In this document: in pieces, positions 7,011 through 16,865 of the stretch
How the letters are laid out: every line of letters begins with the position of its first letter
Position numbering within the stretch: position 1 is the first letter of the stretch
Origin: Arenicola marina
Taxonomy: Eukaryota; Annelida; Polychaeta; Arenicolidae
Reading direction: 5' to 3'
DNA: 64,000 nt
Assembly (NCBI GenBank): GCA_964019135.1
Contig: OZ025257.1
Span: 26,334,352-26,398,351 of the forward strand
Translations under genes and position numbers: made by a program
The notes under the pieces: generated by a model
What the model was told of the DNA's origin: nothing
The model's database searches: none
Seen by the model: the letters and a program-made list of their open reading frames with translations, nothing else

Positions 7011-10000
7011 ATGGAGACTGAGCAGCAGTCTGCCATGGACGATGTCTCGGAGGCAGCTACTGTCGGCCTTCATTGTAAGGCCGATGGTGCAAGTGGCATT
7101 GGCGTGGACACGACTTTCCCGATGCTAGCAGCAGCAGGTGGCTTAGTTGGAGGGCACTGTGCAGAACAATATGTCATGACGGAGAGCGAAACCCCGAGCC
7201 TGGCAGCATGTAGAGGATCGTTTGAAGCAGCGCCTGATGTTCCTACAGCTGTTGATGGTCTTGAAGCAGCTCCTTATGCTCCTACAGCTGTTGATGGTCT
7301 TGAAGCAGTTCCTTATGCTCCTACAGCTGTTGAGGGTCTTGAAGCAGTTCCTTATGCTCCTACAGCTGTTGAGGGTCTTGAAGCAGTTCCTTATGCTCCT
7401 ACAGCTGTTGATGGTCTTGAAGCAGTTCCTTATGCTCCTACAGCTGTTGATGGTCTTGAAGCAGTTCCTTATGCTCCTACAGCTGTTGAGGGTCTTGAAG
7501 CAGTTCCTTATGCTCCTACAGCTGTTGAGGGTCTTGAAGCAGTTCCTTATGCTCCTACAGCTGTTGATGGTCTTGAAGCAGTTCCTTATGCTCCTACAGC
7601 TGTTGATGGTCTTGAAGCAGTTCCTTATGCTCCTACAGCTGTTGAGGGTCTTGAAGCAGCTCCTTATGCTCCTACAGCTGTTGATGGTCTTGAAGCAGTT
7701 CCTTATGCTCCTACAGCTGTTGAGGGTCTTGAAGCAGCTCCTTATGCTCCTACAGCTGTTGATGGTCTTGAAGCAGTTCCTTATGCTCCTACAGCTGTTG
7801 AGGGTCTTGAAGCAGTTCCTTATGCTCCTACAGCTGTTGAGGGTCTTGAAGCAGTTCCTTATGCTTCTACAGCTATTGAGGGACTTGAAGCCGCTCCTGA
7901 GTCTCCTACAGCTGTTGGATATCTTGAAGCAGCTCCTGATGTTTCAACAATTGTTGAGGGTCTTGGAGCAGTTCCAGAGGCTGCTACAGCTGTTGAAGGT
8001 CTTGAAACAGCTCCTGATGCTTCAACAATGGTTGAGGGTCTTGACGCAGCTCCTGAGGCTCCTGCAGTTTTTGTAGGTCTTGAAGCAGCTCCTGACGCTT
8101 CAACACTTGTTGAAGGTGAAGCCGCTCCTGAAGTTGTTGAGGGTCTTGAAGCCGCTGCTACAGTTGTTTACGGTCTTGAAGCCGCTGCTACAGTTGTTGA
8201 AGGTCTTGAAGCAGGTTCTACAGCTGTTGAAGATCTTGAAGCAGCTCCTGAAGCCCCTACCGCTACGTCTGTAGATGCGGCCGACGTTGAGACTGGTGAA
8301 TCAGCTGTCGGTATAACGGCGAGCGACAAGGTGGAACCAGCGGATGAAATGGAAGCAGTGACCTGTCAATGCTGCAAGCAAATATTCCAGGAGCCGGTTA
8401 GCCTCGTTTACTAATAATTACTTTATGATAATTTCACTATTCAAATATACTGCAACTATGGCCTATATGATAGGACATGTTACATATTGGGAACATATTT
8501 TGTGCATCGTTTAGCATTCTGTGTTACTACTCCATCCCGTTTTCCGTCTTCACGATATGAATACATGTACCCAACATATCGTATTTCTTGACGTTGAGGC
8601 TTGTGTGGAACCTTCCGTTATTAGGTAAAGCTTCCCTGTGGTCACCTGCTGTGCCGGACGAGATGTGCGGCGCGCAAGATTCAACATAGCTTCACGTTGA
8701 TCTGTCCGATATGCAAGAAACGGCATTACCTGAACGACGGCTGCGCGGGGATGGAACTGGACGGGCCGACGGTGGAGAAACTGAAAGCCCTGGGACTGTA
8801 CCGGGAACCGGTACCCATGGCAACGGAGGAGGCACCAGAGGAGCAGGGCATGGAGACGGTGGACGCCGCGGCCGCTCCGTCGTGTCTCCATGGCTCCGGC
8901 GTGGAGCTGACGTCCGGCGCGGCGCCAGGCGGGCCTCGCCCCTTGATGATGCACCCTGGGTGCCACCCACAGTCCGGGGTGGGTAGGCCTCTGGGGCCCG
9001 GGTCTGGTCAGGACACGCCGCCCGGGATGGGGCCGCCCGGGGTCTCCACTCCAGTGAGATTGCCTGGACACATGATGCCTGGGATGCAATCTGGGATGAG
9101 ACCTGGGATAATGCCTGGGATGATGCCTGGGATGAAACCTAGGATGAGACCTGGTATGCGACCTGGCATGATGCCTGGGATGAGACCTGGGATGCGACCT
9201 GGGATGCCACCTGGGATGCAACCTGGGATGCGACCTGGGATGAGACCTGGGATGAGACTTGGGTTGAGGCCTGGTTTGCAGCCTGGGATGAGACTTGGGA
9301 TGAGACCTGGGATGCAGCCTGGGTTACAGCCTGGGATGAGGCCTGGGATGAGACCTGGAATAAGGCCTGGGCTGCAACCTGGGATGAGGCCTGGGATGAG
9401 ACCTGGGTTACAGCCTGGAATGAGGCCTGGGATGAGACCTGGGATGAGACCTGGGATGCGGCCTGGGATGCAGCCTGGGATGAGGCCTGGAATGCGACCA
9501 CCAGGGCATCGGATTCCCCGTCACCCGATGCAGCGATTTGTACGCCCTGACATTTATCAGGATGGAGCTGGGGGCTTTGGCGCCACTGACGGAGGGGGCG
9601 AGGAGGTCGAGTGGCAGGAAGGGTGGGATGAAGGGGTGCAGGAAAGTGAAGGCGGAGAGGGGTGGGTGCAGGAAGGCGGAGACGGGTGGGCTGAGGAAGG
9701 TGGGGAGGGGTGGGCGGAGGAAGGAGGAGAGGGGTGGGCTGAGGAAGGTGAGGAGGGGTGGGTTGAGGAAGGTGGAGAGGGGTGGACTGAGCAAGGTGAA
9801 GACGGGTGGGCTGAGGAGAGTGGGGAGGAGTGGGTTGAGGAAGGAGGAGAGGGGTGGACTGAGGAAGGTGGGGAGGGGTGGGGGGAGGAAGGACAGGGCT
9901 GGGCTGAGGAAGGTGGGGAGGGGTGGGCGGAAGAGTCAGCCGAAGGATGGGTGGAGGACGGCGCGCAGGGGTGGGTTGAGGGGGCTGAGGATGGGTGGCA

Positions 10001-16000: not shown

Positions 16001-16865
16001 CGGTTAATGCAGCATCCCTAACAGGAGACTTCCAGGGTTACATCTACGGCCGTTCCAAGATATTCCCTCTTCGCAGGACCTATTCCTCATATTATAATTA
16101 CTGTTACCCGACAAATATGTTTGATTTGCTTGTCCACCCAGTTCTCGACCGATTGACATTCAGCGCATTAGTAGCAGTCTTGTTATGAAGGGAGGTGTTG
16201 ACTCACCGTTTAAACCTCTCTTCCTGTCCCCCGCACACCTAGGTGGCTAACTGCAAGGTCGGTGTCAACCGAGCACAAGGGGGCGTGCTGTTCGCACTTG
16301 TCACCATGGCAACTGAGGAGGACGGAGCGAAGTGCCTGCTGGCCCTGAACCAAACCGTGTTCAATGGAAACATCCTACAACTGAAGAAGGTATATATCGC
16401 TATTATTAAGCCCTTGTATTTGTGGGTTCGAGCAAAGCTTGACAAAGCTAGGCTACCCGTGAACATCACAATGTAGTGTTTATTGTCCAGAGTTTTTCGT
16501 TAATTAATAAGTTGCTTGGCCACATATTGATTTTAAGGTAAATAAAAAATGATAAATCAAATCAAGCATATTTACGTGTGTATTAGTGATTATTACCCAT
16601 GCTGCACATTACGTTTTTTGCGGCAAGATTTAGAATTGTCGTCTTCCACATGCAACGTCCGGTACCTAGCAACACACGTTGACACTTTCAGCGTTTGGGT
16701 CACCCATTGGCGAATCCAATAAAGGCATATCTCATTACGACTTGATTAAGTTACTGTTTGCGCACGTCATTACAATTGAGAGTAAATTACTGGTATCATT
16801 GCGGAATTATCCCACATGGTTGTTGTTTTTGTTGATTTCAGTTAAAGCAAAGCAAGAATGAATAA
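7011..16865 (+). CDS. RING finger / repeat-rich / RRM protein, SAFB-like RRM at the C-terminus
   Basis: Five coding exons: 7011-8396, 8625-12090, 13196-13293, 16243-16389, 16842-16865. They sum to 5121 nt, and all junction phases agree (0, 1, 0, 0). The ATG at 7011 has G at -3 and +4 and follows a splice acceptor at 6972, so a 5' UTR exon is expected. The frame is open back to 6973, so more upstream coding cannot be excluded. Order: 13-residue [13 protein letters not shown] repeats (about 72-415); RING finger C452-C455-C467-H469-C472-C476-C489-C492, split by intron 1 between EP and [14 protein letters not shown] repeats (about 612-754); EEGGEGWA repeats (about 789-924); GPRGPPQ repeats (about 994-1263); a Trp/Tyr/Gln-rich segment; and an RRM (about 1623-1699) with RNP2 LWIGNL and an RNP1 region [15 protein letters not shown] suggests E3 ubiquitin ligase activity and the RRM suggests RNA binding; the function is inferred. 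The RING has three residues between C472 and C476 instead of the usual two. The last exon is the least certain. Confidence 0.8.
7224..8260 (+). repeat. Coding 39-bp tandem repeat (13-residue unit) in exon 1 of the RING-RRM gene
   Basis: About 17 near-identical 39-bp units are followed by several degenerate ones to about 8260. The unit reads V-(D/E)-G-L-E-A-(A/V)-P-Y-A-P-T-A. The D/E position follows the order DDEE DDEE DD and then an irregular tail, which indicates expansion by 156-bp blocks. The 39-bp length keeps the frame. Confidence 0.93.
9073..9498 (+). repeat. Coding 12-bp tandem repeat (MRPG tetrapeptide)
   Basis: About 35 tandem tetrapeptides of the form M-(R/Q/M/K)-P-G with occasional L for M, from 12-bp units close to CCTGGGATGAGA. 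The segment is positively charged and is expected to be disordered. Confidence 0.9.
9604..10010 (+). repeat. Coding 24-bp tandem repeat (EEGGEGWA, acidic)
   Basis: About 16 units of an eight-residue E-E-G-G-E-G-W-A motif, each with one Trp. The segment is strongly acidic, in contrast to the basic MRPG block before it. Some units carry substitutions or small in-frame length changes. Confidence 0.88.
10220..11025 (+). repeat. Coding 21-bp tandem repeat (GPRGPPQ, collagen-like composition)
   Basis: About 38 units of G-P-R-G-P-P-Q with shorter variants that drop PPQ or PQ. The composition resembles collagen Gly-X-Y, but the seven-residue period breaks a strict triplet rule and no signal peptide precedes it. 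A disordered Arg/Pro-rich region is more likely than a collagen helix. Long antisense frames across it are by-products of the stop-free unit. Confidence 0.9.
12091..13195 (+). other. Intron 2 of the RING-RRM gene (phase 1)
   Basis: It starts GTAACT after GCCAAGGAAG and ends TTCCAG before CGGCGTCG. It contains a SINE copy on the - strand (12590-12805) and a C-run near 13129-13142. Nothing coding was seen. Confidence 0.75.
12590..12805 (-). mobile_element. tRNA-derived SINE copy
   Basis: Read on the - strand, it has an A-box-like head (GATCAGTCGGTTAGAGCGCT) followed by GACCATGTC, CGCAAAGAGTAGGGGG and CTTTCCCTTCCTTC. The same order of words occurs on the + strand at 28165-28270, so both are copies of one family. 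Boundaries are approximate. Confidence 0.6.
14800..15180. repeat. 37-bp tandem repeat in intron 3
   Basis: About ten units, best conserved between 14895 and 15130, contain GGTAACTGATACTTGTTTA and GCTTGTCAAGGGGAAG. Copies decay at both edges and diverged traces continue to about 15330. Confidence 0.85.
15613..15670. repeat. 16-bp C-rich tandem repeat
   Basis: Three to four copies of CCCCTCCCAACCCCTA give a nearly pure pyrimidine/A tract within intron 3. Confidence 0.75.

Follow-up and report, generated by a model that had tools for sequence, protein, structure and literature searches.

An annelid gene predicted to join a C3HC4-type RING finger to an SAFB-type RRM through charged tandem repeats

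We analysed a window of 64,000 nucleotides from the lugworm Arenicola marina (assembly GCA_964019135.1, contig OZ025257.1, positions 26,334,352 to 26,398,351 of the forward strand), and describe here a five-exon gene predicted between positions 7011 and 16865 of that window. The predicted product of this annelid gene is a large protein, low in complexity over most of its length, in which a C3HC4-type RING finger follows the first quarter of the chain and an RRM stands at the extreme C-terminus. We consider it very probable that RING, repeats and RRM do belong to one gene, and have hardly any doubt that the RRM is of SAFB origin. The best explanation, to which we give a probability of roughly 0.5, is that this single annelid gene specifies an RNA-tethered E3 ligase with self-associating charged repeats; once the architecture is granted, the odds that the protein works as such a ligase are slightly better than even. 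The features, in window coordinates, are as follows.

7011–8396, forward strand: exon 1, with the start codon, an acidic array of a 13-residue repeat and the first half of the RING; open frame, weak GT donor at 8397
7222–8249, forward strand: array 1, 39-nucleotide units (22 copies) followed by 30-nucleotide units; acidic, without Lys or Arg
8364–8396, forward strand: first half of the RING, ligands C452 and C455; seen in the translation and in a PDB match that spans the junction
8625–12090, forward strand: exon 2, with the second half of the RING, three charged repeat arrays and a Trp/Gln/Pro-rich stretch; ends in phase 1
8625–8714, forward strand: second half of the RING, ligands C467, H469, C472, C476, C489 and C492; an extra residue between C472 and C476
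9072–9499, forward strand: array 2, PGMR/PGMQ repeats, 12-nucleotide unit; basic
9648–9928, forward strand: array 3, GEGWAEEG repeats, 24-nucleotide unit; acidic, with a Trp about every eight residues
10222–11023, forward strand: array 4, GPPQGPR repeats, 21-nucleotide unit; basic
11538–11582, forward strand: Trp-rich stretch upstream of the RRM
13196–13293, forward strand: exon 3, 98 nucleotides; first half of the RRM with an RNP2-like LWIGNL; begins in phase 1 and ends in phase 0
16243–16389, forward strand: exon 4, 147 nucleotides; second half of the RRM with an RNP1-like VLFALVTM; phase 0 at both ends
16842–16865, forward strand: exon 5, preceded by an AG acceptor; the final seven residues and the stop, which lies within these coordinates

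Joined, the exons form 5,121 nucleotides, or 1,706 codons and a stop, in an uninterrupted frame, with GT–AG borders at all four introns and intron phases of 0, 1, 0 and 0. The original prediction, made from the letters alone, of five exons with consistent phases is thus borne out, and we regard the gene structure read from the sequence as a confirmed observation, the splice junctions being predicted. Exon 2 (1,155 codons) lies in a stop-to-stop frame of 1,174 codons that extends to 12149. Because its coding frame contains no stop while the two other forward frames have 38 and 29, this openness is beyond chance; each of the four non-repeat stretches of the exon is also free of stops in the coding frame, the other frames having 8 and 2, 0 and 3, 2 and 5, and 6 and 6. 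Donor 1 is weak, ranking fourth among the 43 GT sites within 300 nucleotides by a donor-site matrix; nevertheless, the exon 1–exon 2 join restores exact RING spacing. A minisatellite of 8.5 copies of 37 base pairs (bp) occupies 14840–15152, within intron 3.

The RRM, which is split by intron 3, scores 36.3 bits with RRM_1 against a Pfam cut-off of 20.7, and the match above the cut-off runs across junction 3. In protein searches over 5.8 billion sequences, only one relative was found, a protein of 1,082 residues that we call P0001: it was the sole match among 7,985 sequences scored in one search, another search gave no match among 7,994, and P0001 itself stood alone among 27 candidates. Its RRM is also C-terminal, is 48% identical to the window RRM over 91 columns and, as in the window protein, is followed by only a few residues before the end of the chain. 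When P0001 was searched back against the genome, the top two of six matches were exon 4 (E = 0.007) and exon 3 (E = 0.36), both weak, and the other four were low-complexity stretches of another contig, C9. Its N-terminus did not match exon 1 (31 of 200 shuffles scored as high), and a model of P0001 predicted from its single sequence had a mean predicted local distance difference test score of 32.8, too low to be of use.

For the comparison with SAFB, the SAFB gene was sought in the same 867-megabase genome, and the gene that we take for it was identified by its domain order. The genome has 30 SAP matches, all outside the part of contig C10 that the window covers; eight were translated, and one of these, at locus L070, we take to be an SAFB-type SAP. 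About 6.5 kilobases (kb) downstream of it on the same strand are two RRM exons (L073), with an acidic open segment before them and Glu/Arg-rich and then Arg-rich segments some 8–9 kb after. In the published outline of SAFB, SAP precedes the RRM and coiled-coil regions are present (PMC9958909). The two genes divide their RRM alike. The first RRM exon is 98 nucleotides in the animal's own SAFB, as is exon 3, and both start 29 nucleotides before the RNP2 Trp codon; the second is 150 nucleotides, against 147 for exon 4, and both start before V-A-x-[AC]-K-V. All three RRM exon boundaries are common to the two genes, together with their phases (1, 0, 0). Each of 24 other RRMs, taken from the 145 RRM matches in the genome (two decoys on the wrong strand are left out of this number), is continuous at the site of the middle intron, a control that is biased because single-stretch matches had been chosen. 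The window RRM aligned with scores of 186 to P0001, 123 to the own SAFB and at most 65 to the 24 others; none of 2,000 shuffles reached its score with SAFB.

Two observations temper this assignment. The SAFB RRM itself scores 123 with the window RRM and 100 with P0001, followed by 87 with an ELAV-like RRM, which is a smaller margin, and by the RNP consensus the window RRM has Leu in RNP1 where SAFB has Phe. Kinship with ELAV itself was considered, as genes that are presumably ELAV-like carry FVTM too; the alignment scores led us to reject it. The listed PDB matches (in the second search, 60 of 124) name no SAFB chain. The prediction of an SAFB-like RRM stands, on the shared exon boundaries and phases and on the best score after P0001, and the two-exon RRM cassette appears to share ancestry with SAFB. 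Membership of the SAFB family is a separate matter. No SAP domain was detected in exons 1 and 2 (Pfam, E up to 0.1), and the chain ends seven residues after exon 4, without a Glu/Arg-rich coil or an Arg-rich tail. Because the SAP domain and SAFB tail were both looked for and not found, we read this gene not as an SAFB, but as a RING gene that shares the RRM exons of SAFB. Elsewhere in the genome, many contigs have RRM matches in frames of one of the same few lengths (424, 462 or 519 residues), a pattern that an RRM-bearing repeat family would be expected to give.

The splice of exon 2 to exon 3 is the weakest link of the predicted gene model, and is supported by the phase, by the rank of its donor and by a modest resemblance to P0001. 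Several observations here weigh against a single gene, and would suit two transcription units: one with the RING and repeats that ends in intron 2 (1,636 residues), and another, with the SAFB-type RRM, made of exons 3–5. Junction 2 is predicted, across an intron of 1.1 kb; if unspliced, the frame of exon 2 meets a stop at 12147–12149, and the sole AATAAA of the intron follows shortly at 12334–12339. The Trp-rich stretch of exon 2, aligned to P0001 alone, is not significant (110 of 500 shuffles as high), and faulty gene models are known to create spurious domain pairs, as reported for lancelets (PMC4967905). On the other hand, exon 2 ends in phase 1, as an SAFB-type RRM exon requires, at the top-ranked of the 29 donors within 300 nucleotides. 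Furthermore, P0001 holds a Trp/Pro-rich region and its RRM in one open frame, and exon 2 is collinear at its end with the region before that RRM (score 106, with one of 500 shuffles as high). We consider the division into two units improbable, and retain the single gene.

The RING has eight ligands in C3HC4 order, C452-x2-C455-x11-C467-x-H469-x2-C472-x3-C476-x12-C489-x2-C492, and intron 1 divides it after P462, inside the core E-P|V-K-L-P-C-G-H. Against the PDB, the spliced segment matches TRIM21 (E = 2e-7) and RNF168 (2e-5), and more weakly RAG1 and TRIM2; the ligand order, and the reach of the TRIM21 match across the junction, uphold the C3HC4 RING that had been proposed. A search of the animal's own genome with this RING gave 16 matches: two are the exons of this gene, and the other 14 are weak (E = 8e-4 at best, with 35% identity); the RING match at locus L011 is, we believe, BFAR-type. 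An NCBIfam scan returned distant RRM families and weak matches on the RING side.

It is possible, but fairly unlikely, that the gene is as we describe and the RING is degenerate, an extra residue having spoiled the zinc site to leave an RNA-binding, charged-repeat scaffold without ligase activity. Three residues separate ligands five and six (C472-x3-C476), whereas there are two in all six related RING loci of the genome (six of the 14 weak matches). All nine listed Pfam RING families fall below their curated cut-off (best 23.9 against 25.2 bits), so that the Pfam check suggested with the original prediction succeeded for the RRM and failed for the RING. No RING is present in the 1,082 residues of P0001, which thus has the RRM without the RING, although its transcript may be incomplete; the RING–RRM pairing could be specific to the lineage, as had been suggested. 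The RING segment nonetheless retains the CPIC motif and all eight ligands, with a basic residue immediately following the final Cys, a position of recognized significance in RINGs, and it is still matched by TRIM21 and RNF168. Of the marks of a RING-type E3 ligase, then, the eight Cys/His ligands are present in order, and the canonical spacing and an above-cut-off match are absent. We continue to favour a functional RING, and read the protein as an RNA-tethered ligase or scaffold.

The four coding arrays have main units of 39 (then 30), 12, 24 and 21 nucleotides, all multiples of three, and their net charges, which in the stretches that we measured (10222–10702 only for array 4) are −48, +24, −35 and +20, agree with the alternating charge that had been reported. 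Four arrays had been said to join RING to RRM. There are four, of which array 1 is N-terminal to the RING and three lie between the two domains. Similarly, the estimate of about 1,100 residues of repeats in that interval was overstated: in the spacer (residues 501–1625), 723 of the 1,125 residues, about two thirds, fall in low-entropy windows.

We compared single changes between repeat copies by the share that is synonymous, having dropped copies with indels or less than 65% identity (in frame, 9 of 22 copies were kept for array 4 and 22 of 22 for array 1). In array 4, 63 of 71 changes were synonymous when read in the coding frame, as compared with 0 of 52 and 9 of 75 off frame; a separate version of the test with anchored patterns is biased towards the coding frame in this array. 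The corresponding shares were 0.46 against 0.29 and 0.11 for array 2, and 0.43 against 0.22 and 0.24 for array 3. Array 1 goes the other way, and counts against our explanation: it shows no sign of protein-level constraint, its in-frame share (0.14) being below those off frame (0.37 and 0.20). Part of array 1 (about 7470–7730, forward strand, residues 155–239) scores 46.2 bits with Pfam's PCF11 RFEG repeat, above the cut-off of 43. This is probably one tandem repeat matching another, since array 1 has no Arg.

The region of array 3 has 16 Trp in residues 801–945, mostly eight apart in an acidic, Gly-rich stretch, and the GEGWAEEG repeats might be taken for an Argonaute-binding platform like that of GW182 (TNRC6), with RING and RRM acting on the target ribonucleoprotein. 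GW182 proteins also have a C-terminal RRM, and are further marked by UBA and PAM2. Neither of these was matched in exons 1 and 2 (Pfam, E up to 0.1), the window RRM is of SAFB type, and a tandem array would by itself account for the spacing of the Trp residues and their acidic setting. We regard such a platform as very improbable. For the Trp-rich stretch at 11538–11582, YLPM1 or some other vertebrate protein is a conceivable counterpart.

In the RNA-tethered ligase that we prefer, the protein would be held on RNA by its RRM together with the basic PGMR and GPPQGPR blocks; the alternating acidic and basic repeat blocks would let molecules associate; and the RING would recruit an E2 and ubiquitylate proteins on that RNA. 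That the gene is transcribed over its full length, and that its product binds an E2 and RNA and associates with itself, we infer from the sequence. A speculative extension, which we think unlikely, is that duplicated SAFB RRM exons, a RING and expanding charged repeats together produced a condensate-forming E3 ligase that acts on RNA-bound nuclear proteins, as the ligase counterpart of SAFB.

Amphioxus had been assumed as the lineage of this DNA. The mitochondrial gene order of the same genome is annelid and rules out an amphioxus origin, so that a comparison among amphioxus proteomes would look in the wrong lineage. Contig C762, of which 9,000 of the 15,942 bases were read, carries in order nad1, nad3, nad2, cox1, cox2, (atp8), cox3, nad6, cob, atp6, with nad5 outside the part read. 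Eight of the ten frames are above their Pfam cut-offs, nad2 only through a family shared with nad4 and nad5; nad6 is below (22.7 against 33.2 bits) and atp8 is without Pfam support.

Upstream of the gene, on the same strand, is the last exon of NAE1, the NEDD8-activating enzyme regulatory subunit (548–892), residues 62–115 of whose frame match APPBP1/NAE1 chains (E = 7e-18). Downstream, on the reverse strand, are pieces of a retrotransposon lacking long terminal repeats (44465–47618), with reverse transcriptase (44465–46036) and endonuclease (45975–47618) in overlapping frames, and a 249-residue open frame (48179–48925) whose UPF0029 match narrowly misses the cut-off (26.6 against 27 bits). 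About 285 copies of a 26-bp minisatellite unit occupy 56580–63998, up to the window's end, and further large arrays lie at 24523–26912 (50 bp), 28271–29446 (34 bp), 33358–34393 (19 bp) and 41887–43360 (16 bp). Rfam and tRNA scans gave no matches.

RNA-binding E3 ligases tie RNA control to protein turnover. If our interpretation is correct, this one was built by joining the two RRM exons of SAFB, boundaries intact, to a RING via repeats whose tandem evolution is still under way; nature would then have supplied, in the repeat blocks, a way of testing how charge patterning acts in condensates, and the kinship with SAFB points to the RNA binding that is of first interest. Among the open-licence papers that literature searches brought up, none describes, by title or opening of the abstract, an equivalent combination of RING, charged repeats and SAFB-type RRM.

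The closest likeness is to SAFB and SLTM, with which the window protein shares the RRM sequence, both RRM exons and three intron positions with their phases; it differs in having a RING, in the placing of its RRM at the extreme C-terminus, and in lacking both the SAP and the Glu/Arg-rich and Arg-rich tail. The RING is closest to those of TRIM21, TRIM2, RNF168 and the BFAR-type locus, its best PDB and genome matches, in ligand order and in a core resembling P-V-x-L/I-x-C-G/N-H, but it has the extra residue between ligands five and six, is not N-terminal, and is followed by no B-box match in exons 1 and 2 (Pfam, E up to 0.1). CNOT4/Not4 combines a RING and an RRM in one polypeptide, together with C3H1 (PMC5970261). 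The window RING is, however, nearest to the TRIM and RNF168 types and more than 1,100 residues from its RRM, and no C3H1 was matched in the RING and RRM segments or in exons 1 and 2 (Pfam). The RING-type RNA-binding ubiquitin ligases number at least 26 putative human members in five families, with RRM among their domains (PMC5707401, as far as its available text goes). Like the MEX3, MKRN and Roquin proteins of this class, the window protein pairs a RING with an RNA-binding domain, whereas that portion of the source does not mention an SAFB-type RRM combined with blocks of charged repeats. The comparison suggests that the predicted gene resembles an RNA-binding ubiquitin ligase in outline, and is neither an SAFB nor a CNOT4.

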